Positions 33,528 through 58,924 of a DNA stretch of 64,000 nt are shown here, piece by piece. The notes below the pieces were generated by a model. It ran no database searches. It saw only the letters and a program-made list of their open reading frames with translations, and had not been told where the DNA came from. Both the position numbers and the translations under genes were made by a program. Each line of letters begins with the position of its first letter. Positions within the stretch are counted from its first letter, which is position 1. The DNA is from Amylostereum areolatum (taxonomy: Eukaryota > Basidiomycota > Agaricomycetes > Russulales > Stereaceae): positions 1-64,000 of the forward strand of contig SAXG01000038.1 of NCBI GenBank assembly GCA_012932865.1. Reading direction: 5' to 3'.

Positions 33528-33558
<31 letters not shown>

Positions 33559-38435: not shown

Positions 38436-38796
38436 TTCCTACACATGCATTGGAAGCTGTCAATCCGGCCGCAGAGGTGCAGACACACACGGAGCCGGTG
38501 CCCGCCCAGGCTGACATCGCCAGCGATATGGCCATCGAGCGAGAGGCCACGGACCAGATGCGATCAGAGTCGGCACTGTTCGATGGCGTGGACTCGGACA
38601 CCGAAATGGACAACGACGACTTGGCGAACCCTGTCGTGCACCCGCAAGTTTCGGTCACGATAGCAGAACCGAGCGTGCCAAATTCCCTTCAGCCTTTCGT
38701 TCCCCGGCCGCCCCCATTGTGAGTTTATTTGTTCTCGCCGTGAACATGGCGATCTGATGGCCCCACTCTCCAGCTCCGTCACACGGCGCTCCACGC

Positions 38797-38804
38797 GCCT
38801 TGCG
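38797..38804 (+). other. Target site duplication, left copy (GCCTTGCG)
   Basis: Eight bases directly before the left element end. The identical octamer follows the right end at 58917-58924. Neither the base before nor the base after extends the match, so the duplication is exactly 8 bp. My recollection is that Zisupton-type KDZ elements also make 8-bp duplications. Confidence 0.9.
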
Positions 38805-38890
38805 ACCCCAGACAGTCAAGTAATAAGCAGTTAACACATAATCCACGCACCAGTTAACCTGTTCTCAACACAAACCCCACGGTGGGCCCA
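38805..38890 (+). repeat. Left terminal inverted repeat
   Basis: It pairs with 58829-58916 in inverted orientation. Shared blocks are AGACAGTCAA near the tip, ACACATAA followed by CCAC, GTTA, and a final 26 bp (38865-38890) identical to the right end. A single-base indel lies near position 38825. The outermost four or five bases differ between the ends. Confidence 0.9.
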
Positions 38891-39205
38891 AGGGGGGTCC
38901 GAGGGCCCAAGGGGACCTATCCTCCGGGGCATGCCAAGGTCATAGGTGAGGGGGTGAGAGGTGGGGTAGGGGTACCCCCGGATCCCACAGGGAATCCGGG
39001 AGGATATATTTCTAACATCCGAGGATCCCCATCCGGGCCACATCCGAGGGGGTCCAAAGGGCCTTTGGGGGGGGGGGGGTCATCCAGGCCACATCCGGGC
39101 CACATCCGGGCCACATCCGGGCCACATCCGGGGGCGGCAGGGGGTCCTGAGGGGGAGGGGGCACCATCCGGGACACATCCGGGACACATCCGGGAGGCAG
39201 TGGGC
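38891..39205. repeat. Left subterminal array of CATCCGGG-type repeats
   Basis: Two arrays follow the left terminal repeat. One has about five units of the 11-mer GGCCACATCCG (about 39087-39133). The other has units of GGGACACATCC (about 39167-39193). A run of 13 G lies near 39067-39079. All units contain the ATCCGG core seen throughout the element. Such arrays are candidate transposase or accessory-protein binding sites. Confidence 0.8.
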
Positions 39206-40495
39206 TCATCCAGGGGGTCATCCTTATGGGGGAGAGGAGGAAGGGGTCCACAGTTGACTTAAACAATCCAAGATCACACATCACCCTGGTTTCTATTTCG
39301 GCACACAATGTATTTCTATGGATACTAGCTACGTGATGCCACGGGTCCGAAAGGAATGGAGATAAGATTATTAAGTCGGAGATGGGATCGTGAGGGGGAC
39401 GTTAAGAGGGATAACAGTGGAAGGGCTTCATCCAGTCCTTCTAGGATCTGGTGCGTGAAGGGGGTGGTACTTGGCATGTTTGGTATGTGACGGAGTGGCA
39501 TCTGTCGCAGACCCGGACCTAGTGGCATCCGACCCGGACCTACGGACCCAGACCTACACCCAGAACCCTGACCCCAACTTGCCGAGGGGCCCTCGCCACT
39601 GTTGGTCTCCGGACTCGGACCCAGACCTGGTCTTTGGACGAGGGGGGGAGGTGATGAAGGTGTCGAGAGGTGTCGAGAGGTGGACTGGGAATGGCAGTGG
39701 CAGGGGATGAAAGTATTGATACACGGAGTGGGAACCACTGTGAGGGGGGGGATGAAAGTGTGGAGACACGGGCTAGGGGGAGGGGGATCTTTGGCTCTAC
39801 TGTCGGACCTTAACTCGGATGCATGAGGCTTGGCCATGATGACATATCACCAAGTGCTACCTGTCGCGGACTCCGCAGTGGTGGCCAAAAGTGGTGGTCA
39901 CGCCGCTTCGGTTGTGGGTTTCCACGAGCCTCATTTTAAGGTGAATGGTCGCATTGGGATGTAACCCTCCGATACCGGACCCTAGTCAATCCTCAGACAC
40001 GGTGACATGGGAAGGACTAGGCCGGGGCGCACCTTGAATATTCTCCACAACCTCTGTCATATCCTCCTCCAGATGGTGTCTCCTCTCCGTCTACCTCGAT
40101 GTGTGGGGGGAGGGTGCGGCTGGTGCCAGGTCGGCCCTTCTGACGTAGCAAACATGCTGAAGAGGTGTTGTGCAGGTATCAAGGGGAAGTTGTGATGAGG
40201 TCGGGGAACGTGGGAGCATTTCCGAAAAGCCTAGCCTGAGAGGAAAGGGCACGGTGGGTGCACAACCGTAGCTACCAGTGATGGGATATTGTGCCAGGTG
40301 GCAAGACGGGCAGTCGCCCGAACCCGAAAAATGGCTCGTGACCGTGCAAATCCCGACCGGTCCAGCTGTCGATCACGTGCCCATCTCAGGATGAAATGTC
40401 ATAAGTCCACAGCTCTGCACAACTGTCTACATAGAACCACAGACCCAATGAACATCAAGCTGTTACATTCCAAAATGGGTCAAGTAGTTCCATTA
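39206..40495. other. Gene-poor left subterminal region of the element
   Basis: No exon set is supported. The stretch 39480-39600 is a run of near-repeats of GACCCGGACCTA-type units. Confidence 0.5.
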
Positions 40496-40516
40496 CCAGT
40501 CCATGTCCATGCTACA

Positions 40517-40570
40517 AGCCATCCGAGCCATCCGAGCCATCCGCACCATCCGAGCCATCCAAGCCATCTC
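40517..40570. repeat. 9-bp tandem repeat (AGCCATCCG)
   Basis: Five to six units of AGCCATCCG with point changes, in non-coding DNA just downstream of accessory gene 1. Confidence 0.8.
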
Positions 40571-40705
40571 CAATAGATTCACGAAAACAAGAAGGCTCTC
40601 CCAGCCATATGATTCATGCAAGAAATGTACTTAAGTGTAATGAAGGTTAGGATTACCATGACCATGGGTAAGAAACATACAACATACCAATTAGTGATCA
40701 TGGAG

Positions 40706-42141
40706 CTACTTGCACCGGTCTCCACCAGCCACATCCTCTCCACCGTAAGGGCCCTCGGATGCGTTCAGGAACGCTTCCAGCCACGCGCTTAGCTCGGAGA
40801 CTTTCTTGGCATCCCTCTTGAGGTCCGCACACTGCACCTCCAACCCTTTGACGACGTCAAGGAGCTCCCCATTCTCCTTGTGGATCTCGGAGATCTCGGA
40901 TGTGATGACAGAGTGGGTGTCCTCGAGTACCCCCTCAAAATCGACCCGGGCAGAGTCAATTTGACTTTTCATCGCCACACAGAACTCGTCCAAGGCCTCG
41001 ATCACAATGTGTTCCAACCCGGAGCCCAAACCAAGGTCCCTGGGTCCGACATGCTTCTTCCCTTTTCCACGCCCATACTGTCAGGACACTGTATGATAAA
41101 TGAAACCAAGGAAAACCCACTTTTACGGATGCCGTGGACACCCTTTCCCTTCCCCTTTGGATTCAGCAGCACCACACCCTCGCCGCAGGACGAGCTAGTG
41201 GCGGAGGGCACAGCACCCTTCGGACCTCCCCTGCTCGGACCTTCCTTTCCCACGCCAGACTGGCCTTCGCCCGCCGGACCCACCGAGACCTCCCATCCAT
41301 CACCCTCACTGACCTCTACCCCACCATGCCCACTCTTCTCCATCCTCCCACCAGCAATGGCTCCTTCCCCCTCCCGCGTGGTGTTGTCCGTAGCCACAAT
41401 ATCCTCGTTGTCGCTTTCATTGTCAAGAACCACGCAGAAGTCCAGTGGGGGGAAGCCGCCCTCGTCCAAGGAAAGTGGGTCCAAGGAAAGTGGGAAACCA
41501 GACTCTTGCTGACAGTCCCGCTCTGGGGACCCGAACGATGGAAGGTTGAAGTTGGGGAGGTCTTCTTCTTCAGACTCTTCATCTGCACTGCCTCCGAGAC
41601 TGGACCCTCCACCCGTAGCTCCTGCCTCCGCCTCCGACTTTGGGCTCACAAGGGCGGACGTGTGGTCGGAAGGAAGAAGGGAGGATTCCACAGTGTTCCC
41701 CTCAGGTACCAGTAAATCTAAGTCATTGTTAAAAAGACGTAGAGATGAACAACATCCCCAACATGCACCTGGGTTCTCCCACCACCGGCTCACGGACCGT
41801 TCCAGGGCATCCGGGATCACAATATCACCCACCAGAATTGCCTCATTCATAGCGTCCTCGTCTGGCATGCCCAGAACTTCGTGGAACCAGTTCATATGTC
41901 CTCGGAACGGACGGTTGCTGAGGCCGACTTCCCGGGCATATGTTTTCCGTGCTACCGCCTGGTACAAAGGTCAAATGATGACGGACATATGACCGGCCGG
42001 ATGGTCACGCACGAATTCCGCCCGAAACATGTCCCACCACTCAGTCGTCGGCCGCCGGTCAACCGCAAGTTTATCCTGCAGGAACAGGACTGCGTGACGC
42101 AGGTGGAGCTCCGTGTCAATCGCATCCATTGACGTATTCAT
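40706..42141 (-). CDS. Accessory family gene 1 (coiled coil, no Zn cluster)
   Basis: Exon 1 (42141-42013) encodes 43 residues ending RRPTTEWWDMFRAEF directly before a GTGCGT donor. Exon 2 (41958-41769) contains AREVGLSNRPFRGHM and SRWWEN. The exon from 41717 is acidic and Ser-rich (DEESEEEDLPNFNLPSF) and runs to near 41120. The last exon ends at 40706 and encodes a coiled coil (EALDEFCVAMKSQIDSARVD). The splice into the last exon does not close in phase with any donor I trust, so this copy may be damaged or the intron unusual. Compared with gene 2 it lacks the cysteine-cluster exon. Likely a nuclear or transposition accessory protein; this is inference. Confidence 0.66.
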
Positions 42142-42611
42142 AGATGGCCAGATATGTGGTGTGGAAAAGATTCCGGGGAGGGTGGTGGTGGTAGAGAGAG
42201 AAAAGTCCAGATTGATGAAAAATGACGTCGGATGACGTGGTGACACCACGGCAAATGCCAGATGTCACATGACCTCCGAGCGCCATGTACAGTCTTAATC
42301 TTTAAGTCTTCTGGCATTATATCAAGGATTCATCCAATTACACTTCAGTTGGGCATGAAAACACAATAGCAAAGTCAAATTACATCCTGTGGCAGGTGAT
42401 ATTATGTACATGCAAAAGCAGGCCGGACCCACAGAGAGGTCCGGACCTCCGAAACGGCCAAACGCATAAGTATTGAGAGAGAAAAGGAGCATACGTCAAT
42501 GGCAGGTATGATACACTGTTACGACTGGTCAGTCGGAGGCAGAGGAGAATACAGTTTGACAAATGTACCAAGAAGGGCAAACTAGGCCATTGAGCTGGGG
42601 CCGGCGGCGGG
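42142..42611. other. Spacer between accessory genes 1 and 2
   Basis: Promoter of gene 1 and 3' region of gene 2. TCCGGA is present at 42440-42445. No gene seen. Confidence 0.5.
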
Positions 42612-44499
42612 CTAGTCCTCACTCCCGGACCCACGGTGCGCCTTGGACGTCCAAAGGAAGGCCTCAAGGCGCGCGCTCACCTCGGACACCTTCTGGGCAT
42701 CCTTCTTGAGGTCGGTGCACCTCAGCTCCAAGGACTTCACGACGTCGAGGAGCTCCACATTTTGCTTGTGGATATCGGAGATATGCGCCATGACGACCGT
42801 GTTTGCGTCCTGAAGATCGCCCTGGAACTTGATCCTGGAGGACTCCATCTGCGCCTTGATCACGATGCAGAATTCGTCGAGAGCCTCGACAATGACACCG
42901 TGTAGGTGACTCTGCTTCCCGAGCGCGGCAGGTCCGACCCGTTTCTTCCCTTTGTCTGCAGGTGAACCATTAACCTGACCGGATGTCTAAGTACGAAGGA
43001 AACATACCTTCACTCCCAATCCCAAGGCCTGCCTTGCCCTTACCCTTCGGATCCTTCGCTCCCACGCCGACGGATGCACCATCACCAGCGGAGGAGCTAG
43101 CCTTGGAGGCTACAGCCCCGCTCGGACCCGCCTTCAGACCTGCCCTTGCCGCATCCTTGACGACCTTGCCATCCGGAATGTACTTGGGCAGCCGGCGAGC
43201 CTGACCTTCCTTCAGGAGGCTGAGGTACTCCGCGTTCGGGGTCATCGTACCCTTTTGGTGGTGGCTGCAGGTCGACTTCTTGTCGTAGCACCGGAGGCAG
43301 GTGTCGCCCTTGGGTTTCGCCCAGCACGGCGCGTGGGCTTTCCCGCATTGCGCGCAGTCAACCTGGTGGAGATCAACGTGAGAGATTTTTAACAAGAAGA
43401 TGGACTTCACGCACCATGTTCGGCCAGTACTCGCCATCGGACGAGTACACGATCTCAAAGTCATTTTCGTCCGGGGGCGGACCCTCCGGACCCTCTGATC
43501 CATCTTCCCCCCTCCCTCTCTCGTCTTGTCCTCCCCCCTCGCCATCGTCGCCCTGCCCTCGGTCACCATCGACCGCCACGTCCCCTCCCTCCGCCACACC
43601 GACACCGCCCATCCCATCTTCACCATCCATACCTCCCCCACTACCTTGCCCGACCTCGCCCTCATTCCGACCATCGACTGTGTTGTCGTCCTCGTCTTTG
43701 TCATCCATGACCATGCTGAACTCAGGGGGTTCGAACTCAGGGGATCCGAACTCAGGGGGTTCAAACCCGGGGGGTCCGACGTCCGAGGGTCCGCTCGCTG
43801 GGACGTCCACATCCATCACATCTCCGGATGGCGTGCGCTCAGATCCTTCGTCAGGGAAGTCGAAGGAGGGGAGGTCGAAGGCGGGCAGAGACTCTTCATC
43901 AGAGTCTTCGTCCATGGCGCCACCGGACTCCCCACCTGGGCCGACCACCTGCACGTCCGGATTACCGTCCACTATCGCCTCCGGGTATTGGTCGTCCTTG
44001 TCAGGAAGCGTAAACGTGGGGGGCCGCGGGTTTGAATTGGGAATGAGAAATTCTAAGGGAGAGAAGTTAGAAGGAATGACTGGCACGAAGCGATGACAGG
44101 CGCACGTTCTTCCTCCCACCATCGCTCCTCCTGTGGTAGCGTGCCCGGCGCAGGGTTCACGTCACGCGTCCATACCAGCGTGTTCTTGACCATGGCCATT
44201 TCGTCGTCCGGGAGGGCCATGACTCGCTCCCAGAAGGTCATGTACCCTCGGTCCGGATGTTGACCGAGCTCAGCCTCCGCGGCGTAGGCCCGCTGCGCCA
44301 TTATCTACAAGCACACTATAGTTAGTTTAGTTTTCGCGCAAAAGCAGCCGCGACGCACCAGTTCGTAACCAAAACCAGTCCACCACTCCCCCGTCGGAAG
44401 ACGGCCAGACGTAATTTTGCCTTTGAGGTGCAGCCACGCGGTCCGGAGGCGATGTTCCCTTTCACGAGCATCAGGATAGATGTGTTCGCTGTCGCTCAT
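42612..44499 (-). CDS. Accessory family gene 2 (Zn2Cys6-like cluster, coiled coil)
   Basis: Five exons close in phase: 44499-44359, 44304-44106, 44052-43415, 43362-43008 and 42955-42612, giving 558 residues. The N-terminal family motif RLPTGEWWTGFGYEL is followed by a GTGCGT donor. Exon 2 has the shared AEAELGQHPDRGYM and RWWEEE. Exon 3 is strongly acidic. Exon 4 carries a cysteine cluster C-x2-C-x6-C-x8-C-x2-C-x6-C-S-H (DCAQCGKAHAPCW...TCLRCYDKKSTCSHH), with the spacing of fungal Zn(II)2Cys6 domains but without their usual Lys/Arg between Cys2 and Cys3. Exon 5 is a coiled coil (EALDEFCIVIKAQMESSRIK) shared with gene 1. DNA binding is likely but unproven. Confidence 0.82.
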
Positions 44500-44731
44500 G
44501 GTGGAGGGGAGTTGTGTGCGGAGGGTTAGCGAAGGGACCGTTGAGATGGTGGTGGAAGGAAAGGAAAAAGCAACGAGACCGGCGAAGTGACATTGTGACA
44601 AGACATATCCGGTCGGCAAATGCCGCAGATCACGTGGCCAACGGACTCGATGCGTAATCGCGGACAAGTCTGATCTCTCTTTTGCCATCCACCATCTCCT
44701 TGTAAACAACCTCCTTATCACCACTTTCACA

Positions 44732-46404
44732 ATGTCTATGACTTCGGCACCGCCCTCTCACGGAATGGACGTCAACACGTACATATTCTCTGAGGAAGTC
44801 CTCAAGCTCGAAGCCCGGCTGCTGTGCGCCATGGACACGCTGCAAACGAGACCTGGGAGGGCAAATGTAATGTGGTGGAATCTATTTAAGCGGACATTAG
44901 TGCGTAATCCCCACCTCTTCCCTAGATTTTACTCACTGAGATTTTCCTGTAGAAACGCCTTATCAACGTCTACGTCCCGGAGGCCCGGCACCTTGGCATC
45001 ACGGCATATCCCAGGAGCATCACGGAGTTCATCTGGGTTCAAACATGGTCGAACGGCGGGATGATCGCGCTCGGGACGGCCCACCTGCTGACACCCTGAC
45101 AGGACGCGACTGGCGTTCGGAGGCCGAGAGAACAGGCCATAAGGGTGAGTCCGACGCCTTGCCTCCCACATCCGAGATAACATCCGGACCCCAACAGGAT
45201 TCTGGCTGAAGAACATCGTATACGATGAACCTGCATCAGAGCACTCCCACGACTCGGATCATCCAACGTGGTGGACGAATACGGTGGGTGGCGTACCTTA
45301 TATATGACGCTTTTTTGTGCTGAGCATCGTTTAGAACAAGTGCATCCGCTGCATAAGCAGAAATCTTGGATGCTGGAACACGGGCAATATTCGGTCCTGC
45401 GTCCTCTGCACGCAGGCGAACATCGAGTGCTCGCACAAGACCAAGGGAACACTAAGGACGACCAAGGTGCAGTGGAATCAGTTTCGAAAAGAGGGCGATG
45501 CCGGTCGTCAGCAGCGCATCCGGCCGCCGCGCGTTCCTGCCTCGGTGCCGACAACCCCGCCTCGGACCCCCCCTCTACCCACGCGTACTGTCCTCTCCCC
45601 CGTTCGTCCACGTCCAGAACGCCAGGCCGCCAAGCTTGCGGCACGGAAACTAGAGAGGTAGGGAGACATCATCGCCAGCGACGACAATGGAGATAGTGAT
45701 GAAGACGGTTATGAGGCTGGACATGATTCGGATGAGGAGGATCATCGTGTGTTTCTCTTTTATCATCCGGGTTAACTTGATCTGACTCTGATACTTTAGC
45801 GGAGGTGAAAGCTGGGCTAGACCAGCTTCTTACCCTCCTTGGCACCAGGACCGGACCCGCGCTCAAGGAGGCTATATCCGTCAATGATGAGGCGCTCCGT
45901 ACTACCCTCCGTGTCCACCTCGACGATGCAAAGAAGCAGCTCGCTTACGAGCTCATCCTCCATCAGGCTCTCCAGGCCGTTGTCTCCGATCTCCAGGCGG
46001 AGGTCGTCACCGCTGGAGAGGCCCTTAGAGCTGCCAAGAAAAAGCAGGATTCAGCGACCGAGCTTCTCATCCGCCGGATGGGGACCCTGACCTTGGCCGG
46101 ATCCGCCGAGCCCGGACCCACCGAGCCTGGACCCACCGAGGAGGAATCCGAGAGTCGCAGCCATCGTGGCAGTGACACTGCATCGGACACGTCGGACCTT
46201 CCGCCAATCGTGGCTTCGCAGGATAAGGTGATGTGGGAGACCCGTGCTGATGATGACGACTTGCGTTCAGAGGATTTGGGTGACGACGAGGACGAGGAAG
46301 ACGAGGAGGAAGAAAGGGGAGAAGAAGAAGAAGATGATGATGTTGAGTTTGTTCCGGATTCGCAGGAAGGGGTGACGTTCACCGACGACGATTACAATGA
46401 GTAG
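44732..46404 (+). pseudogene. Accessory family gene 3 (Zn2Cys6-like cluster), probably decayed
   Basis: Exon 1 (44732-44899) encodes 56 residues ending RANVMWWNLFKRTL before a GTGCGT donor. Exon 2 (44953-45144) begins with the family pattern (VPEARHLGITAYPRS). Its length leaves the frame out of step with the next exon, and a TGA follows in the first frame: the equivalent exons in genes 1, 2 and 4 are all 1 mod 3, this one is 0 mod 3. Exon 4 (from 45335) carries the same cysteine spacing as gene 2 (KCIRCISRNLGCW...SCVLCTQANIECSH). An in-frame TAG at 45659-45661 separates it from an acidic continuation. The last exon (45800-46404) is a coiled coil with an acidic tail. Confidence 0.72.
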
Positions 46405-46603
46405 GTCGACCTGTGCAACTTTTTGATCGTGCGTGTATGTTACATCTTGTACCTCCGGACCCTCCTTGCCTTGTGTCGTCAAAAATGTATCTTGTGCCAG
46501 TCATCCGGCCCGATCATCCGGCGAAAAGGTGAGTGCCGGACACGTGGTATGATACACGTTGTGTGATGAGCTGGCACTCCTTTCGTCTTGCCATCACGTC
46601 TAA

Positions 46604-49472
46604 ATGTTCGAGGACGAGCAATCCGACAACCAATTCCCATCGTGGGACGATCCCGACGCTGATGGCATGCTCCTTGATCAGGATGTACCGGACGATCAGC
46701 CGCGTGAACTTCCCCCCCTCCTCCCCGGCGAGCAAGACTGGATCACCGATCACCTCGAGGAGTTTAAGAAACTCACGTACACGGACAAAGGGCGTTGGGT
46801 CACGAAGATGCGAGTTATATTTTTTGCAGACGTTCACCAAGGCAAGTTGTACCCTCCCGATCACCCTCCGACAAAGAAGAAAGATGCAGCCTTCCATGAG
46901 TGAACTGAAGTAAGGCGCTCGGATGCTTGTATATGGATACCCTCCTCACTCCAGTGTCTATAGGTGTTCCGCTGGCATATGTTTGAACAAGGTCGTGTCC
47001 GACGACCTCGGGACTGGGTTATGCACGATAAAGGCTTCAACTTCCACGTTGCCTTCCGGATGATGTTCGAGAAGGAGATTCTCCAGCGCCGCGATGAGCT
47101 CGTGAACGCGATGACGCCAGAGGAGCGAGCGAGGAGCAAGAACCCAGAGCTGCAATGCTTTCAACCAGCACTTTCCGAAATACTCAGGGGGCTGACGGAG
47201 AAAAATCGGGCGGATATTGAGAAGTACCGGGTCGAACTCAATACGGGAGGGCTTCCGGAGCCATTGAAGAGAATGTACGTCCGACCCGGATCCCCTCCGA
47301 AGGCTGACAGTTGACCTCCACTACAGCAACGCACAAACCCTACTTCCTAGAATCTTGTTTGAGACTCAGAGGAAGGTGTGGAGACTCTGTGGGGTCCCGC
47401 TTGTCACATTTGGGGCCATTCCTGGCAAGCTTCCCGGCTCCTTCAAAGTGGAAGTGTATGACTACACTTTCCCTTCCATAATCGATGCTGACTCCACAAC
47501 AGGTTCGAATACGGCATCGCATGCAACTATCTCGACAAGCCATTCACCGAGATGTTTCCGAACTGGGGATGGGAGCCTCTCGACGATAATCTCCCGGAAT
47601 GGGCACGTGCCTGCAAAAGTATGTCTTCCGGACCCTAAACTACATGCCCTCCGACTGACCTGTGGCAGCCTTCCGTCCGGACCCAAATAAGCCACATAAG
47701 GTGACAAAGTCTGGAAACGTTAAGAAGCCGTGGCCGAAGATCATTCACAAGGATGGCGTTCCTCAGCCTCCGGATGTTCCGTGGACGGCCACTCAGCCGC
47801 CGGTTGGGGATAAGCGTCTCTGGTGCCGTGCCTATCTCACTGCTGAACTCCGCATGTCCTCTTTCTTTCTGTGATCAACATCAAGCTAACCTTGCACCAG
47901 GCATCGACTTGGATCGTGGAAATGCACACGTATTCTGGGGCGCCATCCTAGACGAGGCGATTGGAACATTTTTCAACATGTCTCAGCTTCCACCCCACTG
48001 GAATAGGCTGTCCGATCCCGGCAAGTGGAGTCACGAGCAATGTGGAGACTTTCGCGAGGCAGTGGAGCGTAATCTCGCCGTGTCCGGACGTGGCTTCCAC
48101 TTTCACCATGTCAAGACCTCAGCAGGAATACAACCCGCGGTCCCGGCCGCTGACCGTACCTGGTCTCCAGAGCAAGCCGAGAAGGAGGCGGAAGACCGGG
48201 CTGATGAGGCGGACGAGGATGAAGCAGAAGCCGAGAATCCAACCCCAGCTCGTCGAAAGAGGAAGACGAAGCGAACAAATGCACCCTCTCGTTCAAGGAA
48301 GAAATCTACAGCGACCGTCGAACCACCGAGTCAAGCTCCGACACCGAGACAATCCAAAAAAACGGCCCCAAAAAGAGGTGCAAAAGGGAAACGTGCTAGC
48401 AAGGCCGTAGTAGAATCGTCTGACGAAGCGGAAAGTAGTGCGGAGCAGGGTCTTGCAACCGGGTCGTCGGACCCTCAGTATCGAAGTGCGAGACAGGAGA
48501 TGATTGCTGCGGGGGAGGATTCGGAAGATGAACGTGACAATGGTGTTCCTGTTGCGCGGTGGCCCCACCCAGCATGGCCCGGAACTGCCCCCGACACGGT
48601 TGCGCAAGAACCGCAGGCACAGTTCACCTACCTCCGGACGCTGTCAGACAAGGATCCTTATGTCCGTCTAGTAGATCTGGTCTCTCGTATTCCGGTACAT
48701 CATCTCAATACCCGTCCCAAGACAATGTGAGCTAACCTCTCCTCCTCACACGTAGGCAGCACAGGCAGATCTCAGACTCCCCAAAAACGCACCAAAATGT
48801 GGGCTGTGGGATTGGCCCAAGCGATGGATTGGGTCCGAGCAGCACGAATTTGAGCCAGCGATGATCGAGCTCCGGAACTGCGTCGCGGACTTTAACAACG
48901 AACCCCCAACATTTCTGTGGCAAGGGGAAGACGGATCATGGGCTGGAAGGGATCGCGCGTCTGCAGCCTTATTGCTCCTTGGGCTATACGATCACGACAC
49001 AGTGTTCTGGGAAGCAATGAAGAGCAACTCGGCCCTGTGGAAGGAGTCTACGCTGGCCCCGGATGGTGTGTCCTCAAGAGGAACAATTATGACCTCTTGC
49101 ATTGGCAAGCTTCCCGAGTACGCGCAGAGTGGCAGGGAAGGAAGCTGGTGGTGGTTGGAGGCAGTGAAGGCCATGACCCTGGCCGCACAGAAAGAAATCG
49201 CGAACACAGAGGCTGCAGGCATTCCAGCCAATACATCCACGTCCGGCATCCGAAGGAATCCCACTCGCAAGGCACAGCCTCCTCGCGGCTCTATCCATAT
49301 TCCCCGGTCCGATGAAGAATTTGCAGGCGTACAGTTAGACGGTACACCATCTCGTAGGATTCCCGTTCATGTTTGTGTGTCTTGTGGGCTGACCACCACA
49401 ATATATAGGTCCGAGGCCAAAGCCGTGTCCGACGGCCACTGGCCCCAATACCACGCCCGGCAGGCGAACTGA
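46604..49472 (+). CDS. Large unknown cargo protein of the KDZ element
   Basis: Several exons read in one direction: 46604 to about 46899; about 46964-47272; about 47352 to a GTATGA donor near 47458; from about 47504; about 47670 to 47810; about 47900-48729; about 48760-49340; and a last short one. Some junctions are not settled, notably the first. The order is: acidic start (MFEDEQSDNQFPSWDDPD), a globular region with MFPNWGWEPLDD, and a long charged middle with bipartite basic stretches (ARRKRKTKRTN, SRSRKKS) that look like nuclear localisation signals. A tryptophan-rich C-terminal region follows (LWDWPKRWIGSEQHEF, then FLWQGEDGSWAGRDRAS). I recognise no domain. It is not a TET/JBP dioxygenase: no HxD or matching late histidine motif is seen. 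Confidence 0.65.
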
Positions 49473-49473
49473 C

Positions 49474-50038
49474 ATGGATGCACTAGCGGAGATGGACACT
49501 GACCTTTTCCCTCCTCCAACATTCGACACAGATATACTGTCCGATGAAGATGAGGGAGAATCTACCTCTCCAGATGTGTTTGGCTCCTCCGTTGTCCCAG
49601 AACCGTTCGAGGCCCCCGTCTTCATGGCGATCTCCGACTTGGAGGATGACGAAACCCCTTCGGACGATGACATATCCCACCATGTTCATTTTGTATGGAA
49701 TCCATGTTCCTCGTCGATGGATGTTCGCTCATGTATATTATTCTCAGACACCACCGGCGGCAGATGGGGAGAATCCCGAGAAGCGTCCACAGCGTCGCCG
49801 AAAGCCTCCATCAAGAGCAGATTCCCTATATCCCCCTCCTGAGTTGACAAAGCCCGCAAATTACAAGAAGAAACGCAAGTCGACGAAGGGAGCAGCTCAG
49901 TCGGAGGTAGGCCTCGGCGAGGCCGGACCCTCTTTGAGAGTTGCATTACAGGGGACTGACGTTCCTGACGATGGACGAAAGCGATTGAGTAGTGTGGTAA
50001 ACACACCGAGGAAGGGGACAGGAAAGAGGAGAACATGA
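49474..50038 (+). CDS. Small acidic-to-basic cargo protein
   Basis: Exons 49474-49692 and 49748-50038 close in phase to 169 residues. The first half is acidic (MDALAEMDTDLFPPPTFDTD, later DLEDDETPSDDD). The second half is basic (EKRPQRRRKPPSRA, later KKKRKSTKG, ending KGTGKRRT). It starts one or two bases after the stop of the large gene in one reading, so it could instead be that gene's last exons. Such bipolar proteins often bind histones or DNA; here that is only inference. Size and build resemble the gene at 53793. Confidence 0.62.
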
Positions 50039-50049
50039 GGATTGCATTG

Positions 50050-50485
50050 TGGGTGGGGTGTGCGTCGATACGGAGGAGTGTCGGATAGGCAGAAGGTATC
50101 AGACAGAGCATTGTGCCATACTGTGAAATCCACCACATATTCAGTACCGTAACCGTCCCAGCCACTATACAGACGATTCCTGAATGAAGAATTGATGTAT
50201 GTGAGAGGAATGCAAAGGTTGACAGATAGAGAGCGTACCACATCCGAGGTATCCGGAGGCTGGATCTGGGCCCACTGTGTCTCAATAACTTCACCATCCG
50301 TGGCGGGAAATCTAACCAGGATCAGTGTCGCCAAGGGCTGTGTAGAACTGGTATTGTCACCTGGGGAGCCTGTGTGGATCCTGGGTGCTCATGTAATGTA
50401 CAGCATACATCGTGGAGGTCGGTGGAGTGTGTCGAGGAGGAGAAAGAGCAGGGTGGGAGACTGGGTGTGACTTGGGTATGCTCAT
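50050..50485 (-). CDS. Small cargo locus, copy 1
   Basis: A minus-strand ATG at 50485 (MSIPKSHPV...) lies about 49 bp downstream of TATAAAAG at 50541-50534. The reading then continues in another frame through about 50390-50240 (contains LVRFPATDGEVIETQWAQIQ), ending at a GTACGC donor, with a last exon near 50195-50060. I cannot find an intron of acceptable length between the first and second segments, so the model is incomplete or the locus is decayed. It is clearly related to the locus starting at 51499. Confidence 0.4.
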
Positions 50486-50533
50486 GGTTCTTCTGAAGTA
50501 TGATCGATGAGGATCAGAAGGAGTCCTTGGGTC

Positions 50534-50541
50534 CTTTTATA
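50534..50541 (-). promoter_or_regulatory. TATA box for small locus copy 1
   Basis: TATAAAAG on the minus strand, 49 bp upstream of the ATG at 50485. Confidence 0.55.
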
Positions 50542-50704
50542 CTCACTCGGGAGTTCCCACAATGATGTCTCACATGACCGGAGGACTTAGATAATCAGAG
50601 ATGAATTAATTGATGGCGCCCATCCGGCGGACCCTCCGGGTGCGCGGTGTCAAATGTTTCTCAAGGGGGTGGGCTCAGGTGAGGAAAGCAATGTGATAGC
50701 GACT

Positions 50705-51013
50705 AACGAGTACATTCAAGATAAAGTAAATAAACGGACCTCCGGCGGACCTTCCAGTGATGGTGCGCCATGCGCCGGGCTAAAAGGAGATGTGGATGGC
50801 GAGGATGGATGTACCAATGGAAGGGAGGACCGAACAGACGGAAGGATCGGGGTTCGGTCCTCCCTTCCACTTTCTTCCGTCTGTTCGGTCCTCCCTTCCA
50901 CTGGTACATCCATCCTCGCCATCCACATCTCCTTTTAGCCTGGCACATGGCGCACCATCGCTGGAAGGTCCGCCGGAGGTCCGTTTATTTACTTTATCTT
51001 GAATGTACTCGTT
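50705..51013. repeat. Large hairpin: 140-bp inverted repeat, 29-bp loop
   Basis: 50705-50844 and 50874-51013 are inverted copies, matching at about 136 of 140 positions, with a 29-nt spacer that itself repeats the inner TTCGGTCCTCCCTTCCAC. The four differences are all transitions. Because of the symmetry both strands carry the same short open frame, which I do not count as a gene. Two TCCGGCGGACC-type motifs lie in the arms. A transcript through it would fold into a long double-stranded RNA. Confidence 0.95.
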
Positions 51014-51025
51014 ACATAGTGAGAT

Positions 51026-51499
51026 GTGACCTAAAATTCCTACCCTTCCCTCATGTTCCCCGGCCCCTACCTGAACTATCTCAGCCAAATGTTCAACGAG
51101 ACCGTCAAAGTGCACACGGTCCCGAGCGGCAACTCGGACGCGGACAGTACTTCCGACACGCGCTCCCACCAAGCGCAGGCGGGTCTCCAGCTCGTCCGCG
51201 ACCGACCCCCCTTCGTCCGCGGTGTCCTATTCCTCCTTTGGGCACCGTCGCATCCGTCCAGCAATAACAGCAACAGCAACAACTCGTCTATCGGCGGGGT
51301 TGGTGCCAGATACCAGATCGATCTGTACTGTACACTCCACCCCATCCCACCTCCTATGATGGCGATCTTCATACCTATGTGACCACCAGGGGTTCCGGAT
51401 GTTTTGATGGTGCACAGCATACATCGCATAGGTGGGAGGAATGGATTGAGTCGGTGAAGGGGAAGGACAGGGCACTGGGTTTGACTTGGGGATGCTCAT
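51026..51499 (-). CDS. Small cargo locus, copy 2
   Basis: A minus-strand ATG at 51499 begins MSIPKSNPVPCPSPSPTQSI, nearly the same as copy 1 (MSIPKSHPVSHPALSPPRHT), and both continue with MYAVH. A later frame near 51230-51030 reads like an exon (ADELETRLRLVGARVGSTVR). The intron between is unclear, as in copy 1. The 3' end runs into the hairpin at 51013. Function unknown. Confidence 0.4.
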
Positions 51500-51684
51500 G
51501 TCTTCTGTGCTATTGATGAAGATGAGATGTGATCTTTGCTCATTTTTATCCTTCTTCAGATGTTGCCGGATTCACACATCACATGACAAAAGCGATGCGA
51601 TAGCAGACATGGTGCGACTAGGTACATTCAAGATATTTTTCAAAAGTCCGGACCCTCCGGCGGACCCTCCGGCGACGCGCTACC

Positions 51685-53527
51685 TCACTTCTCGCCCTGC
51701 TGAAACTTCCGCATGAGGGCCATGAACGGCGCGAGCTTCTCATCAAGCTTGCGATCGATGAGGGCGCTGATGGAATCAGCAGTGGTGGTGTCCAACCCAC
51801 CATCCACCTGCATCGGCTCCACCGCCTCCGGTGCGGCCTTCGCCTTCCCCTTCCCTGCACCAAGCGCCGCCGCCAACCCTCCCTCCTCCTCTGCCGACAT
51901 GGGGACCAGCTCCGGTGCGAGCAGGACGTGTCCTCCGCTGGACGCGGCCTTGCGGTACCACACCTCGGACGACTCGGGGTGGGGGGTCCAGACGGTGTCG
52001 TTCAGGTTCTTCAGCTGCGCGAGGGGTTCCTGCACGAGGGTGACAATCTCCGCCGCGATCCGGGCAGAGATGCGATCCTCGAGGACGCGCATTGCGGCCT
52101 CAAGTCCGAGGCCATCTAGATGATGAATGTCAGTATCCTGCGACATAAGACAAGACACACATTGGACTTACCGTAGATGTTGCCACCGTCGGAGGCACCC
52201 TCCGACGACTCTCCCTCCTGGCGTCGACGCTTGTGGGGGGGGGCCTCTTCTGCTGGGGGGGCCAAATCCGCTCCGGCTTCTTCAACCGACTTCCTCTTCA
52301 ACATCGGCGAGTCAGTGGCGATCGCCATCGCAGGGTTGAGGGGGGCCGAGGGCGACGGCGTCGGGGGTCCAGCGGGAGGGGAGGGGGATCCACGTTGGAT
52401 CACGTCTGCGTTGTCCAGTGCCTTTGCAGCCAACGTTGACGGCTGCACGGAAGCGGGAGCCGCGGGGGGGGCAGGCTGAGCGGTGGCAGGAGGTGTGGGA
52501 GGCGGAGACTGAGCAGGGGCGGGAGCTGCGGGGGGGGCAGGCTGAGCGGGGGCGGGAGCCGTGGGGGGGGCAGGCTGAGCGGGGGCGGGAGCCGTGGGGG
52601 GGGCAGGCTGAGCGGGGGCGGGAGCTGCGGGGGCGGGAGCCGCAGGGGGGGAAGGCTGAGCGGGGGCGGGAGTCGCCGTGGGGGGGGCGCGCTCGGAGGC
52701 GGGAGCCGGAGGGGGGGCGTGCTCGGAGGTGGGAGCCGGAGGGGGGGCATGCATGGGCGGTGGAGGCGGAGGCGGGGTCTTCTGTGCCACGGAGGCCTTG
52801 GCCTTGGCCTTCGGCTTTGGCTTGGCCGTGGTTTCCTTCTTAGAAGTCGACGCAGTGGGAGGGGGGGCCTTCTTTGTCTCGGATGGAGACACAGGGGGGG
52901 GGTGGGCGCCTTTTTCTCGGACGCGGACGCGGACGGCACAGCCTTCTTGGGGGGGGGTTTAGTTGCCGAGGTTGTAGATGTGGGAGGGGGGAAAATCTTC
53001 TGGGCAGAAGAGGAGGTCGGAGGTGGTGCATCCGGGGCCGGGGTCGGAGCGTTCTTTTTCTTCTTGGCGGTCCAAAAATCTAAAGTGATGTCAGTATATG
53101 GACCTGGTGAGTCAAGGGGCACATACCTTCCTCCAGCCACCACCGAGGGCCAATGTCCCCCACCCACTTCCGTGCGTAAAGGTCCGTGTCGACCGCGTTG
53201 ACCTCCTGGAGCCACAGGTGACGGTCTTTGCCTTTCATCGCCTTGTAGATGGCGCCGACAAAGTCCGGGTACTTGTTGATGCCGAGGGCGGCACCCTTCT
53301 TGTGCATGTCCATGGCGAGGGGTTTCTGCCAAAATGTTAGTAAAGGAGGGAGATGGAAAGGTCAGTCAACGCACCAGAACCTCGTGAAACCTGGTCCAAA
53401 ATACCACCCCGGGAACCACCTTGCGCCTGTGCAGCTCGCACACGACCTCGTGCAGGATCCGCTCCAAGCGCATCACATCATCGCTGTAGGTGGCGACGTC
53501 GGTGTTGATGTCTACCGTGGACGACAT
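51685..53527 (-). CDS. Accessory family gene 4 (Pro/Ala-rich, no Zn cluster)
   Basis: Exon 1 (53527-53375) encodes 51 residues ending PGVVFWTRFHEVL before a GTGCGT donor. Exon 2 (53325-53127) is 199 nt, the same length as in gene 2, and contains GAALGINKYPDF and RWWLEE. The long exon from 53079 opens DFWTAKKKKN. It then passes through a very Pro/Ala/Gln-rich repeat region with repeated PAPAQPAPP units and ends at 52172. The last exon is 52115-51685. Within the long exon the frame breaks at a C9 run (plus-strand G run 52894-52902): one extra base would join the two open halves. This may be a frameshift or an assembly error. No cysteine cluster is present. Confidence 0.68.
52894..52902 (-). other. 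Homopolymer frame break in accessory gene 4
   Basis: Nine C on the coding strand. The upstream frame (ending ASEKKAPTPP) and the downstream frame (VSPSETKKAPPP) are off by one base here. Ten C would make them continuous. Confidence 0.7.
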
Positions 53528-53792
53528 TTGAGGAGGATGGCAGAGGGACGAAGCGGGAGAGTGTGAGGTCGGTGAGGTGAGGTAAGAGACAAGAGAAGAA
53601 AAGAGAAGCGAAGTTGACTTTCCCGCGCCGATGACAAATATGCTTCCACGATCATGTGGTCGACGCGTCACCTTTGTTCGCAAGTCGTTCCTTCCTCCTT
53701 AACATTTACCACCATCACGCAGGTAAGGATTACTTTGGAGGATGTAATCTTTTGGGATGACTAACTTTGAATGAGGTTTGCTATTGCAAAAC

Positions 53793-54416
53793 ATGGACAG
53801 GACATCCGGACATACCGAAGACCGCAATGTCGTGCGCACGTCATTCAGCATGATAGCCCAGTATGGGTCGGAGAGTAGTCAAGCGGGAGGCCAATCCGAA
53901 CGGCAATGTAAGGCTTTTTTTAATGAGATAAACTTTTGATCTGCTGACACGGGTGATCCAGCTGAAGAGACCCCGGACATTTTGCTCCTGAGTGAGGCCA
54001 GACCCTCCGGCGGGTTGGCATCCGGACCTCCGAGTCCTCTCACGGACCCTGTGGGGTCCGACAGTGAGGACGATGAGCCTGTGCCAATGACTCTTCCTGG
54101 GCTCCAAGACGGAGCTCCCGACGTCATGGTTCACCCATGGCAGGTGGAACCGCTTGTGCTGCGTGAGATGCGTGAGATGCGTGAGCTGAGAGCATCGCGG
54201 ACAGAGCCACTTCCCTATTTTATGGGTGGCCCAGGGTCCCAGGGTCCGGCCGTGCTGCGTCAGCGGAATAACAAGCGGTTGCGAACCAGTCCTGATGGAA
54301 AGGGGAAGAAGCGTGCGCGATCCGGTGAGTACCTCGGTCAGTGTTGGGCTGCTGATGACTGATTATATCATCTTGTAGATATTTCATCCGGGCAAGGTGA
54401 GGAAACAACGGAGTAG
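53793..54416 (+). CDS. Second small acidic-to-basic cargo protein
   Basis: Exons 53793-53907, 53962-54324 and 54379-54416 close in phase to 171 residues. It starts MDRTSGHTEDRNVV. The middle is acidic (VGSDSEDDEPVPMT) and the end is basic (RQRNNKRLRTSPDGKGKKRA), followed by a short acidic tip. It converges on the transposase gene with 34 bp between their stop codons, so the two 3' ends may overlap in transcripts. It is similar in size and charge layout to the protein at 49474, but I see no clear residue-by-residue similarity. Confidence 0.7.
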
Positions 54417-54450
54417 TAACTTTTTGTGGGAGGGTACAATGTAAATAATA

Positions 54451-57400
54451 TTACACTGTCACATTGTACTTCCAGAATACCGCCTGAGCTTCCTGCCTTA
54501 ACGTCGTCCAGGTTTCTATCTGACGGGAGTCATAGCAAGCTGCTCCAATATCCCCACGTCCTAGGTCCGTGTTCCGGATGTTGGACCATTCAGATACCTT
54601 TCTGTTGTGGAACCGGAGCGTGTTCCCCATCTGAGCGCGGACACGTCCGATCTGTTCTTTCGTCCGGTCTAGGTTTGCCTTCGCGCGAAGAAGATTGACC
54701 CGAAGGACTGTACAAGAGTGAGCAGGTATCAGAAGGGGTTAGGATGACAACTTCTCACACTCATCCTTCCACGTCGGATTCGAAGAGTCTGCCTCCGACG
54801 GGCGATCCATTGTCCAAAACCACGCGAGTTGAGCGCGGACGGTGTGTGGGTTGGACGGGTCAATAATAGTGGTGCTTGCTTTGAGGTCTTGTTTGGTGAG
54901 GGGTTTGAAACGGTCAAGGACAGTCGGATCTGCGTGAAGTCGGCCCAGTGCTTTCCGAGAGTCCATGTAGACTTGTACATGCTGCCGAAGGGTACCGAGG
55001 GTCCCCGTGACGGCCGAATATGCACGGGTTACCTGGCGTTGAGTGGAAGCTGGCCGGACCCCCGTCCGGTACTGAAATGAGAGAATTCCGACACTGTTAC
55101 GGATCTCCCCAAGGGCATCATTGGCGACACCAATCCACAGCTGAGTCTCCTCCTCCATGACAGGGCGGTTGGTTTCGCTGCCTCGCCATGTTTCAGACAT
55201 GGAGGATGGAAGCATGATTGGTAGGCACTCTGCTGGAATTTGAGTTGACGTTTTCTTTGCAGGGGAATCTGCAACGGGAAGAAGTTCGATCTCGCCAACC
55301 TCGTCCAACTGGGGAATAAAGTCTGAAGCGGCTCGGACCCCGGACCATCCGAGCTGCTTCCGTATAGCACCGTTGAAGGACATGATTTGTTGCTTCAATT
55401 TTGACTGGCGTCCGGCAATTGTCAATGAGTCCTGACTCGGCCGCCTCTTTTCTGCCTGTAGAGATAGTCTATAGAGAATGTTACAGTGGGATGAGAAGGC
55501 AGGTGGGGAAACTCACTGTGCCCCCCGGAGGCGGATTCCACTTGCCAGCCATTTCACGCGGACCCCTCCCCCAAGAGCCTTTTCCTTCTCTATTAATCGC
55601 ATCTGTAGCTCCTTCTTCCCCGGAGCTAGGACTTGGTGAGTATGGAGATGATATGGATGGGATGTTGTCGTACCAAGCTCAAGGCGGACATCGAAAATGG
55701 TCATTTTCTCACGATCTGTCTCTCGACAGTTGAGTGCCTCGTCCATCTCGGACAGCCACCCTTCCACCTGTTCTTCTGTCGCTTGGGCTTTGAGCTCCTT
55801 ATAATACTTGTCTCGGTCTGGGAGGTCGGTCTGGGCTTCGCGGAGGCGGCGGTCCAACATTGCGGCTGGATGGAAATTAAGTAGATTCCGGATGTGAGGG
55901 TTGTGGACGCACGCATTCCGATGGCCTTCCTCCAGTTTGTGTTAAATATATGCCAGTTGAGATGCTCTTCACGAGCTGCGGGTGTCATGGCCTGAGCATT
56001 TCGGGAGGCGGCGTTGAGGATCGACCAAAGTGTTTCCACGATCTCGCCATCGATGTATCCTATTCCAGGGATATAAACCGGTGCAAACTTGGCGAAGCAG
56101 TCATCCACATGTCCGTGGATGTGAAAGACACCGACGCCCTGTTTTATCTTGAGGCCCGGAGGGAGTTCGAGATACATGCTGCCATCGACTCGGCGCCGGA
56201 GGTGGATTCCGTACTTACACATAATGTTGTACGATACCATAACTTCTTCAATACCTCCGAGACTGTGCTGGAGTGCGCTGCACAATGCATAATCAACATT
56301 CGCCTGCCTAGAGCGGGGTACATAGTCAGTGATACGCATGCAGGGAGGATATGGATGGTGACGGACTTTTCTCCCTTCTGCAAGTTGACGGTTCCAACAG
56401 GGAGCCAGCATCCGTGGTCTGCACATGCCACAGAGACTATACCGGACACATCCCTTCCTTTGTGTTCTGAGTCGGCCTGCAACACTGCACGGTGGTTGAC
56501 ACACTTCACTCTGGTGGTCTGAAAATTAATAAGTTCAACATTTACATTACGAAGGACAAGATATCCGGACCTTGGTCTCCACCGCATTCGCAAGATGGGT
56601 TTGGTAATGCGCTTCCGGGACAAAATACCCAGTTCCATGACCCAATCGGACTTCCTTTTTCTGCGGGGTTGCGGACGCGAGATGTTGTGCGCTGTAGTTT
56701 CCATCTAGGACGACGGTGGCAATGTACTTGAACCTAGAGCAAGGATATGTCAGTACTTGCAAAGGGACATGGGAAGCTGGTGCACTTGTCTGGATCGTCC
56801 TTCCAATTCACCTCCAGATTGACACCAGGTTGAGGACAGGTTATGCATCCAAGTGTTAGTTGTCCTGGGGCCAGTGTAGGGGAGTCGGATGCGTGAAATC
56901 ATTTCAGCAACGTCAAATAGCGATATTGTCGATTTGTTCGGCGGAGTTCCTGGTAGCGAGTCTGGATTTTGTCAGTGCCATTGTTAGGAGTCCGTACGGT
57001 GTCCGAAGTGGATAGGGACGTACCGGTGTTTTCCCAGGGGACCTTCGGTACGATTTCACTTTCACCTGTTGAAAATATGAGCTGAGTGTTGTGTGGGATA
57101 TGATATTTTGGTCGCAAGCATCATCCAATGCAGAAAATGTAAACGCAGACTTGGGAGTCTTGACGCTTGCCGGATACAATCCCAGTTTGAGTAGCTGTAG
57201 GTCATCGGCAGCAGCTTCTTCGCATTTGCAGAAATGGACCCCTATGCAATGAGCACCTGTTGAATGGACGACCACCATGATCCTGTTGTTGAATGGATCT
57301 ACGAAGACGGGTTGATCGGATGCGGGAGATGGGAGGGGTGGGATGGGTGTAGTCGGGGTGGATGGGACAGAGGTGGATGGGACAGGGGTGGAAGGTCTTG

Positions 57401-58421
57401 ATGGTGTTGGTGTAGTGAGTACTGGTGGAGGATGGGGTTGGGGGGTGGAAACGGACTCCGGTGGTGGCGTCGGGTCAGGTGTGGGCATCGTGGGAGCGAC
57501 AAAATGATTGGACGTAGGGGGCGCTGACTGGGGTGGTGGTGTGGGCTCCGGGGTATAAACCAGAGGTGGGAGATGATCGTGAGCATCGGGAGGAGGGGTC
57601 GGATGTATCGGAGGAGGGGTTGGATGGATGGATGGATGAGTTGATTGTTTGCTTCCAATGGGAGCCGCGTGTCCGAGAGTGATACTAGATGTTGATGGGC
57701 ATGGCTGTCCTCCGTGTCCGAGATGAATGATCACACCCACGTCATGTAACCAGGCATCAGTGAAGTGCCCTCCAGTCCACCGTTGGACACGATGGAAAGG
57801 ATGACGGAGGTGGCCCTTGCGGAGGCACTCTGCGCAAACATTCGGAGAGCCGAAGCACTGCTTGCACCGCCAATTCCCATCCTCAACCCCACAATCAATG
57901 CACTTGACAGACGTCGGACCCTCCCGGCCATGCATAACGGAAGTGTACTGGGGGATCCTTGCCTTCCACTCCTTCATGAAGGTATTTTGAGACTGGACAT
58001 CGGATGGTATGAGGTGATTTGGTGAGATCCAAAAGGTCGACAGACTCACCTTGCCAGCCATCCGTTTGGTTGGAAGTTGAAGGACGGGAGGGGGCACGAA
58101 TGGTAGGTGGTCATCGTGGTCATCGTCGTGTGTGAAGTCGTCCTGAGGGGGATCGCCGTCGTCCAGCCATTGATCCTGGGCCTGTTCTAGTCTCTGCTTG
58201 GCTAGTGGGCTGAGTACTCTGTTCTTGACCGGGTCTCCCATTGCTCGTGCTTGAAATTTGATTTTGCCATACCAATTCCGTTTAGCCTTGTTCTGGGTGA
58301 CTCTTGACTCCGAATACACAGTTTTCCTGCCCATGGGGTATGAAGGGGCACAGATAGCAGTGGGTAGAGATGGGGATTTATGAGGAAGGGGGATTGACAC
58401 GTATGGTCGATGGGAAGACAC
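54451..58421 (-). pseudogene. CxC2-KDZ transposase, carrying a nonsense codon
   Basis: Exons on the minus strand: 58421-58050, 57992-57024, 56961-56786, 56733-56571, 56518-56367, 56307-55913, 55865-55674, 55631-55517, about 55450-54759, and 54707-54451, about 1150 codons. An N-terminal CxC2 cluster (CIDCGVEDGNWRCKQC..., then CAEC, H and H) is followed by a Pro-rich linker and HFCKCEE. The KDZ core then follows: CITCPQPGVNL, VVLDGNYSAQHL, HGTGYFV, CVNHRAV, GVGVFHIHGHVDDCF and GIGYIDGEIVETLW. It should cut and join the element ends as an RNase H-fold DDE nuclease. Two faults: TGA at 56901-56899 (codon about 468), where relatives have Trp, and SYNIMC where relatives have Y-D-x-x-C (AAC at 56228-56226). 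The family consensus is from memory. Confidence 0.88.
56899..56901 (-). other. In-frame TGA in the KDZ transposase
   Basis: The frame is open on both sides (LTLLK before, FHASDSP after) and no GT...AG pair of reasonable size removes it in phase. Confidence 0.7.
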
Positions 58422-58636
58422 ACATGCTGAGATTATCGGATCGAAGGGAGACCACGTGGAATCAGTACCTTTCTAATATAATTCATCTAACTTAGTGCCT
58501 CGGATGGATCGGACGGATGAACTAGAGACAATGTGGGATATTATCAGACATGGTATGTGGAATGTGTGCAAAAGGGTGGGTAATCAGGTAGTAGACAGAG
58601 TGGAGGTAGATATCGAAGCCTCCGACATTTGCTAGA
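58422..58636. other. Transposase promoter region inside the element
   Basis: Between the transposase start and the right subterminal array. No gene seen. Confidence 0.45.
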
Positions 58637-58828
58637 GGGTCCAAAGAGGTCCGAGAGTCCGAGGGTCCGAGGGTCCGAGGGTCCGAGGGTCCGAACTGTC
58701 ACTGAGGGTCCGGGACATTTCTGCAGTGTCCGAGGAGCCCTGGACAGTGGAGGAGGGGGCAAGGGGAAGTATCTGAGGTGGTATCATAGGTGGACCCCAC
58801 ATGGGCCCATGTGTACCTTGGGGTACCG
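58637..58828. repeat. Right subterminal array (GGGTCCGAG) and palindromes
   Basis: A 9-bp unit GGGTCCGAG is repeated about four times at 58662-58693, with related GGTCCGAGAG units before it. Nearer the end lie a perfect 14-bp palindrome ACATGGGCCCATGT and a GGTACC-flanked segment. The left end has CATCCGGGCC arrays instead, so the two subterminal regions differ. Confidence 0.8.
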
Positions 58829-58916
58829 TGGGCCCACCGTGGGGTTTGTGTTGATAACGGACTAACAGACGTGTGGGTTATGTGTTGACAACAGCACTAA
58901 TTGACTGTCTTATGTG
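58829..58916 (-). repeat. Right terminal inverted repeat
   Basis: Inverted partner of 38805-38890. The 26 innermost bases are identical, and the outer part matches in blocks (ACACATAA, CCAC, AGACAGTCAA). Confidence 0.9.
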
Positions 58917-58924
58917 GCCTTGCG
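58917..58924 (+). other. Target site duplication, right copy (GCCTTGCG)
   Basis: Identical to 38797-38804. The next codon of the host gene (CCA) begins at 58925. Confidence 0.9.

Follow-up and report, generated by a model that had tools for sequence, protein, structure and literature searches.

A 20-kb KDZ-type transposon with both ends fixed in an exon of a predicted host gene of Amylostereum areolatum

Results

A KDZ-type element lies between the two parts of a predicted gene

Amylostereum areolatum is the fungal partner of a pine-killing woodwasp. We analysed 64,000 nucleotides of its genome (contig SAXG01000038.1 of assembly GCA_012932865.1, positions 1 to 64,000; hereafter the window, to which all positions refer), in which a transposase gene and a set of cargo genes, enclosed by inverted repeats, separate the two parts of a predicted host gene (Table 1). 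We read this arrangement as a single KDZ-type transposon of 20,113 bp, inserted into an exon of that gene and with both ends fixed, and we put the probability of this reading at about 0.94. Further copies are named below by the contig on which they lie (C13, C34 and so on).

Table 1. Features of the KDZ-type element and of the host gene that it interrupts.
Feature	Position	Strand	Basis or remarks
KDZ-type transposon, both ends	38804..58916	.	sister copy C13, inverted repeats, nine left ends starting G-ACCCC
Target duplication GCCTTGC, left copy, 7 bp	38797..38803	+	comparison of insertion ends
Target duplication GCCTTGC, right copy, 7 bp	58917..58923	+	comparison of insertion ends
Left terminal inverted repeat	38804..38893	+	83% over 64 nt, 79% over 84-85 bases against right end
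Right terminal inverted repeat	58826..58916	-	alignment to left end, genome search with right end
Transposase gene	54451..58334	-	seven exons modelled on copy C13; CxC2 and KDZ domains; in-frame stop at codon 454
Cargo gene A1	40706..42264, approximate	-	tandem relative of A2 (repeat D2); dN/dS 0.30 in last exon, 0.43-0.63 elsewhere
Cargo gene A2	42612..44499	-	six-cysteine motif of B; tandem relative of A1; dN/dS 0.21 in last exon
Cargo gene B	44732..46404	+	motif C-x2-C-x6-C-x8-C-x2-C-x6-C and acidic tail; dN/dS 0.22 in last exon, 0.40-0.43 in exon before
Cargo gene C	46604..50038	+	918 aa in C53 model; dN/dS 0.12-0.31 in filtered exons; no Pfam family
Cargo gene E	51685..53361, approximate	-	N-terminal module related to B; dN/dS 0.32 in last exon
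Open frame F, 140 aa, weakly supported	53940..54359	+	dN/dS 0.27 against C53
Host gene, 5' part	36526..38803	+	exons 36526-36586, 36643-36794, 36852-36997, 37051-38718, 38774-38803; homologues P0001, P0004
Host gene, 3' part cut off by element	58917..59515	+	split exon to 58973, exons 59036-59174, 59229-59325, 59391-59417, 59483-59515
aa, amino acids; dN/dS, ratio of non-synonymous to synonymous divergence.

The transposase matches the KDZ transposase domain PF18758 with 93.3 bits (cut-off 26.6, E 2.3e-26) and the KDZ-associated cysteine cluster CxC2 with 74.1 bits (cut-off 27, E 1.2e-20), which places it in the KDZ superfamily.

An earlier note on this DNA had described a perfect 8-bp duplication at the borders. 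The octamer GCCTTGCG does stand at both of them (38797-38804 and 58917-58924). By itself it is not rare, with seven occurrences on both strands of the window against 2.0 expected, and as sole proof of insertion it was dropped as too common; what gives it weight is that it sits exactly where the inverted repeats end. Comparison with other insertions also assigns its last base to the element. A G precedes ACCCCAGACAGTC in all nine left ends that hold ACCCCAGACAGTC (window, C150, C138, C13, C34, C4, C66, C53 and C139), and the G therefore belongs to the element, which spans 38804-58916 and has the termini GA..TG. On the right, the eighth base is G in two (window, C139) of the five insertions whose facing ends sit on one contig, the others being C13, C34 and C53. 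With the addition of three pairs matched solely by their duplication (C150/C150, with ends 87 kb apart, C138/C146 and C66/C130), the count becomes four of eight. Since the G is the element's own first base and the eighth base on the right varies, the duplication is 7 bp rather than 8: GCCTTGC in the window, GCGCGTT in C13, GCTCATG in C34, ACGACAG in C139 and TGTCACG in C53. Inverted repeats of about 88 bp, also described earlier, were recovered just inside the borders and are imperfect, with an ungapped core of 64 nt at 83% identity (38830-38893 / 58826-58889) and a longer alignment of 84-85 bases at 79% (38810-38893 / 58826-58910).

Sister copies share the ends, and two sister insertions have empty sites

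A search of the genome with the terminal repeats, as the earlier note had proposed, gave 25 matches for the left end and 35 for the right, both lists including matches to either end. The copy at G000:C13:898582-918604 aligns to window positions 38804-58918 at 98.1% identity and has the same termini. Both ends are likewise preserved in the copies on C34, C139 and C53, which makes at least five such copies in one genome, and the size of about 20.1 kb with fixed ends given previously is borne out by these shared termini. The C34 copy measures 45.5 kb end to end and equals the window element plus two extra inserts. These look like long terminal repeat retrotransposons, because they bear terminal direct repeats (495 bp at 100% and 422 bp at 99%) and each lies between two copies of a 5-base stretch of the element, as placed by the alignment coordinates. 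The copies on C139 (18.6 kb) and C53 (18.1 kb) belong together as a subfamily, with 66-93% identity in aligned pieces of at least 150 bases and some parts unaligned, and on C96 the match is confined to 1.2 kb at its right end. C1 was discarded as an end pair, its two end matches not facing each other.

Empty sites exist for two of the sister insertions. When joined minus one TGTGTGG, the flanks of the C150 insertion, whose ends were paired by their shared duplication and by the joined-flank match, align without interruption at three places, along all 300 bases and with 98% identity; occupied places of this type match the joined flanks as 1-151 and 144-300. The three empty places overlap KDZ matches, and the C150 target is for that reason read as another KDZ element. 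The joined flanks of C13 correspond to a gag-like frame. Of 381 candidates, 40 were scored and every one matched over 1-300; the targets are one base longer than the joined flanks, which places one indel somewhere within the 300. The 39-base junction of C13 has 276 matches at up to two mismatches, against none for a reversed control.

The left and right ends L003/L016 (C138, C146) and L007/L018 (C66, C130) share a 7-bp duplication across different contigs, which could reflect either recombination among copies at ectopic positions or wrong joins in the assembly. Right ends L012/L013 (C150, C96) share 1,400 bp of flank at 99.7%, and L014/L015 (C96, C142) share 1,281 bp at 97%; these insertions were probably copied together with their surroundings, the C150/C96 pair probably while inside another KDZ element.

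The target is a predicted host gene with homologues in two other genera

When the element and one repeat are removed, the host frame comprises 2,058 coding bases (686 codons) followed by 114 codons over four introns to the stop. The open rejoined frame with later introns in phase, and the shortening from about 800 to about 695 residues, had both been put forward before, and our model agrees on both counts: 800 aa rejoined and 695 aa as interrupted, with the last 114 residues lost. In this model intron 2 was picked among several open variants. The gene is presumed to be expressed and to yield the shortened product.

Protein searches returned one homologue each in Ganoderma leucocontextum (P0001, E 3.3e-14, sole match) and, in a separate search, Trametes sanguinea (P0004, E 1.3e-21 for query residues 72-330, sole match). 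Orthologues that stop at the insertion site had been named in the earlier note as a reason to abandon its reading; both homologues continue past it. The part of the host protein behind the insertion can be aligned up to the C-terminus of P0001 with a score of 71 and, together with some residues before the junction, to P0004 residues 371-580 with a score of 107, scores reached by none of 2000 shuffles in either case. The residues RRSTRL, immediately before the insertion point, are common to the host protein and P0004.

Several observations weigh against insertion into a host gene as we describe it. The annotated P0004 protein extends beyond its C-terminal match and bears a precomputed gag domain, and a comparison of the host C-terminal part with the last 160 residues of P0004 failed. 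The comparison with the two closest relatives of the host gene in the same genome (C146 and C163, at 44% and 48%) stops short of their C-termini, and a search of the genome restricted to the C-terminal part, with E values up to 10 admitted, matched only the window. An empty allele at the window site, which the earlier note had suggested looking for, was not found in the assembly, where both flanks match solely themselves; the paper that probably describes this assembly states that heterozygous contigs were taken out (PMC7227769). Among the sister insertions, the two ends of C150 lie 87 kb apart on one contig, with the right end found again on C96.

The alternative that survives best is that the target was itself part of another mobile element, in which case no host gene would have been disrupted. 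Sister copies have indeed inserted into mobile elements, C13 into the gag-like frame and C150 into a KDZ element. The target gene, moreover, is one of a small family, with 14 exon matches across the genome including 4 from the gene itself, and has a tnp2-like open frame as its neighbour. We nevertheless consider this unlikely, in view of flanks that are both single-copy at the DNA level in a genome search, a gene model with introns whose large exon matches no Pfam family, and the homologues in two other genera. Much less probable still is a chance or composite arrangement, made of two half elements or of an assembly join. The octamer alone is indeed not rare in the window, and the end pairs C138/C146 and C66/C130 indicate that joins inside repeats can occur; yet C13 has the same 20-kb arrangement, 98% identical end to end, the duplication sits exactly at both ends and the two flanks make one gene. 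A giant element of the Starship kind, mobilised by a tyrosine recombinase, would account for the large size and the cargo genes, but is very unlikely here, since none of 20 open frames scanned (19 of the element and 1 of the host, with shorter exons outside the scan) matches a tyrosine recombinase family, the transposase found is of the KDZ type, and cut-and-paste transposition is in keeping with inverted repeats and a duplication of 7 bp.

Two neighbouring features may be recorded here. The tnp2-like open frame, which occupies 33450-36297 immediately upstream of the host gene and matches Transposase_21 at an E of 1e-5, short of the cut-off, is presumably part of a Plavaka/CACTA-type element. 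The host exon carries, at 38300-38425 near the insertion, a 21-bp tandem repeat encoding a proline-rich heptad.

The transposase frame of the window copy contains a stop

Read along the C13 exon borders, the transposase is open in C13 (1,160 aa) and C53 (1,164 aa). The window copy has a single stop, at codon 454, which is not present in C13, C34 or C53; in C34 the frame contains other stops, and in C139 it is disrupted at an earlier point. Gene C of the window likewise contains an in-frame stop, at codon 100, where C13, C34, C53 and C139 read through. These in-frame stops in the transposase and in gene C suggest that the window copy is no longer autonomous and would be mobile only with transposase from a sister copy.

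The transposase core (54.8-56.8 kb) is 94-99% identical to C53/C139, while adjoining 500-base windows are at 72-88%. Synonymous divergence (dS) between the window and C53/C139 is 0.01-0.08 in the core exons and 0.64-0.67 in the first exon. Because identity and dS of the core differ so sharply from those of neighbouring stretches, recombination or gene conversion between the subfamilies is the likely explanation.

Gene C accompanies KDZ transposases and stands apart from TET/JBP

In a protein search, the C53 model of gene C matched Amylostereum chailletii P0002 (71% over 97% of the query) and P0003 (57% over 26%), the latter by eye comprising gene B and part of gene C within one annotated protein. 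An AlphaFold prediction of P0002 with P0003 reached a mean pLDDT (predicted local distance difference test) of 37 and was not usable.

Exon rows grouped by eye gave 31 gene C loci, with identities to the C53 query from 31% upwards. These were compared with 106 KDZ places drawn from the matches listed, in which exon hits to the same gene had for the most part been combined. A KDZ place lies no more than 20 kb away at 24 of the 31 loci, against 2.1 expected at random (binomial 2e-22); the gene C copies are related and not independent events, so that the binomial figure overstates independence and this counts against the association. Of these 24 loci, 21 are convergent with the KDZ gene and 16 are spaced 7-10.2 kb from it. 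The remaining seven, which have no KDZ place within 20 kb, include C34, where the inserts explain the distance. Gene C is thus likely to be a standing part of this KDZ lineage, and perhaps a partner of the transposase. The left end L006 (G000:C4:20803) directly adjoins a gene C homologue (C4:20805-21026, 47%), and this copy probably inserted into another gene-C-type element.

A TET/JBP gene was absent from the element, and likewise from C13, C34, C139 and C53, in a scan with PF12851 at E up to 0.001 that ignored introns. The genome as a whole contains 27 matches to PF12851; 21 are within 10 kb of a KDZ match and none is within 20 kb of gene C. This distribution suggests that gene C and TET may be alternative accessories of KDZ elements.

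Further cargo genes

The earlier note had counted at least nine cargo loci, a number that comparison with C53/C139 reduces: what it supports besides the transposase is a set of five cargo genes, namely A1, A2, B, C and E, together with a few weak frames. Short conserved frames near 50.4, 51.4 and 54.0 kb fall outside these genes. Conservation was judged against the C53 and C139 subfamily with a filter of dN/dS below 0.4 in stretches without stops, and the values that pass are therefore a selection; filtered-out exons of A1, A2 and B have 0.40-0.63 among the values listed, and some wrong-strand frames also passed, for example inside the transposase. Two earlier stretches of A2 have dN/dS of 0.41-0.45, and in one of these the copy used for comparison contains stops. 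Gene models of the whole element fused neighbouring genes, and single-region models were used instead.

None of the cargo frames and models scanned against Pfam matched a family above its cut-off. The cysteine regions of A2 and B, which have the same motif spacing, align with a score of 95 reached by none of 2000 shuffles; no cysteine motif was seen in A1. The six-cysteine motif, identified as a pattern match only, resembles fungal Zn2Cys6 clusters, and A2 and B are likely to bind DNA. N-terminal parts are related in the pairs A1-A2 and B-E (0 of 2000 shuffles each) and find no support in A2-B (837 of 2000), A2-E (40), A1-B (37) and A1-E (221). The idea that the four small genes A1, A2, B and E form one family is only partly supported.

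A palindrome of 141 bp, 97% perfect and with a 29-bp loop, lies at 50704-51014 of the element; 131 of its bases are gone in C34 and 31 in C13.

Decay of the copies

Across 19,706 columns, with the base shared by the other two copies taken as ancestral, the window copy has 79 private changes, C13 has 144 and C34 has 250, and the window copy thus has the fewest of the three. C>T or G>A accounts for 65, 124 and 173 of these changes, respectively, and 47, 101 and 139 are C>T or G>A at CpG. Cytosines before G make up 24% of cytosines in the element (1,271/5,334), and the G+C content of the window is 0.52-0.57 depending on the part. This CpG skew fits a decay of methylated cytosines or a process resembling repeat-induced point mutation.

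DNA transposons are given as 1.36% of the genome in the account of the published A. areolatum assembly (PMC7227769). KDZ alone has 155 exon matches in our search, and KDZ elements may therefore be undercounted in that annotation.

Discussion

We propose that a KDZ transposase would have made a staggered cut, predicted to be of 7 bp from the duplication, in an exon of the host gene, and that the element probably entered there by cut-and-paste, removing the C-terminal 114 residues from the predicted protein. The present copy would move again only if a sister copy supplied transposase. At the practical level, the insertion could be used as a marker for isolates of the woodwasp's fungal partner.

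As to the extra genes of KDZ elements, the most interesting lead here is the companion gene C of a KDZ lineage without TET. A possible, still tentative extension is that two mutually exclusive accessory programmes exist among the KDZ elements of this fungus, one with TET/JBP and the other with gene C and six-cysteine, zinc-cluster-like proteins, which would solve the same problem differently, the window element being the type of the second. If this is true, the gene C set would be a second, so far unnamed route to escape from methylation-based silencing or to helping the transposase. A possible protection of KDZ elements from methylation by TET can be tested through the decay of CpG at TET-carrying and gene-C-carrying loci within one genome. 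In this single genome at least five copies keep both ends, two insertions have empty sites, and TET-carrying KDZ loci contrast with those that carry gene C. Among openly licensed papers, our searches turned up none whose title or abstract deals with the cargo of KDZ elements in Amylostereum.

Among known systems, the TET-carrying Kyakuja elements of Agaricomycotina (Kojima 2025, PMC12730594) are similar in their KDZ transposase, their mushroom-class hosts and their 7-bp duplications. Laccaria Kyakuja, as portrayed in the text of that source, has CA..TG termini, no inverted repeats and a TET/JBP gene, whereas the window element has GA..TG termini, 79% inverted repeats and no TET/JBP match, and carries gene C and six-cysteine genes instead. 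It therefore shares the duplication length of Kyakuja, and neither the termini described for Laccaria nor the accessory gene of the TET-carrying elements. Zisupton, according to the same source, belongs to the KDZ superfamily and has terminal inverted repeats, and makes 8-bp duplications as opposed to the 7 bp found here, where the eighth base is unshared in three of five same-contig insertions.

The elements KDZ1, KDZ2 and KDZ3 of Cryptococcus neoformans (PMC12810828) are alike in combining a KDZ domain with a CxC cluster, in their inverted repeats (139-241 bp in their case) and in inserting into host genes. They are described as about 9-11 kb long, with CxC1 rather than CxC2 and duplications of 8 bp (KDZ1) or 4-8 bp. 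The view that the window element is unusually large for a DNA transposon consequently stands as to its size and is tempered as to its rarity, large KDZ elements having been reported already. Movement was observed for the Cryptococcus elements and is inferred for ours. In Pleurotus ostreatus (PMC7641404), every intact KDZ gene is reported to be preceded by CxC2, and in the window CxC2 and KDZ lie in one gene model; the insert that breaks MSH4 in that fungus was not assigned to KDZ.

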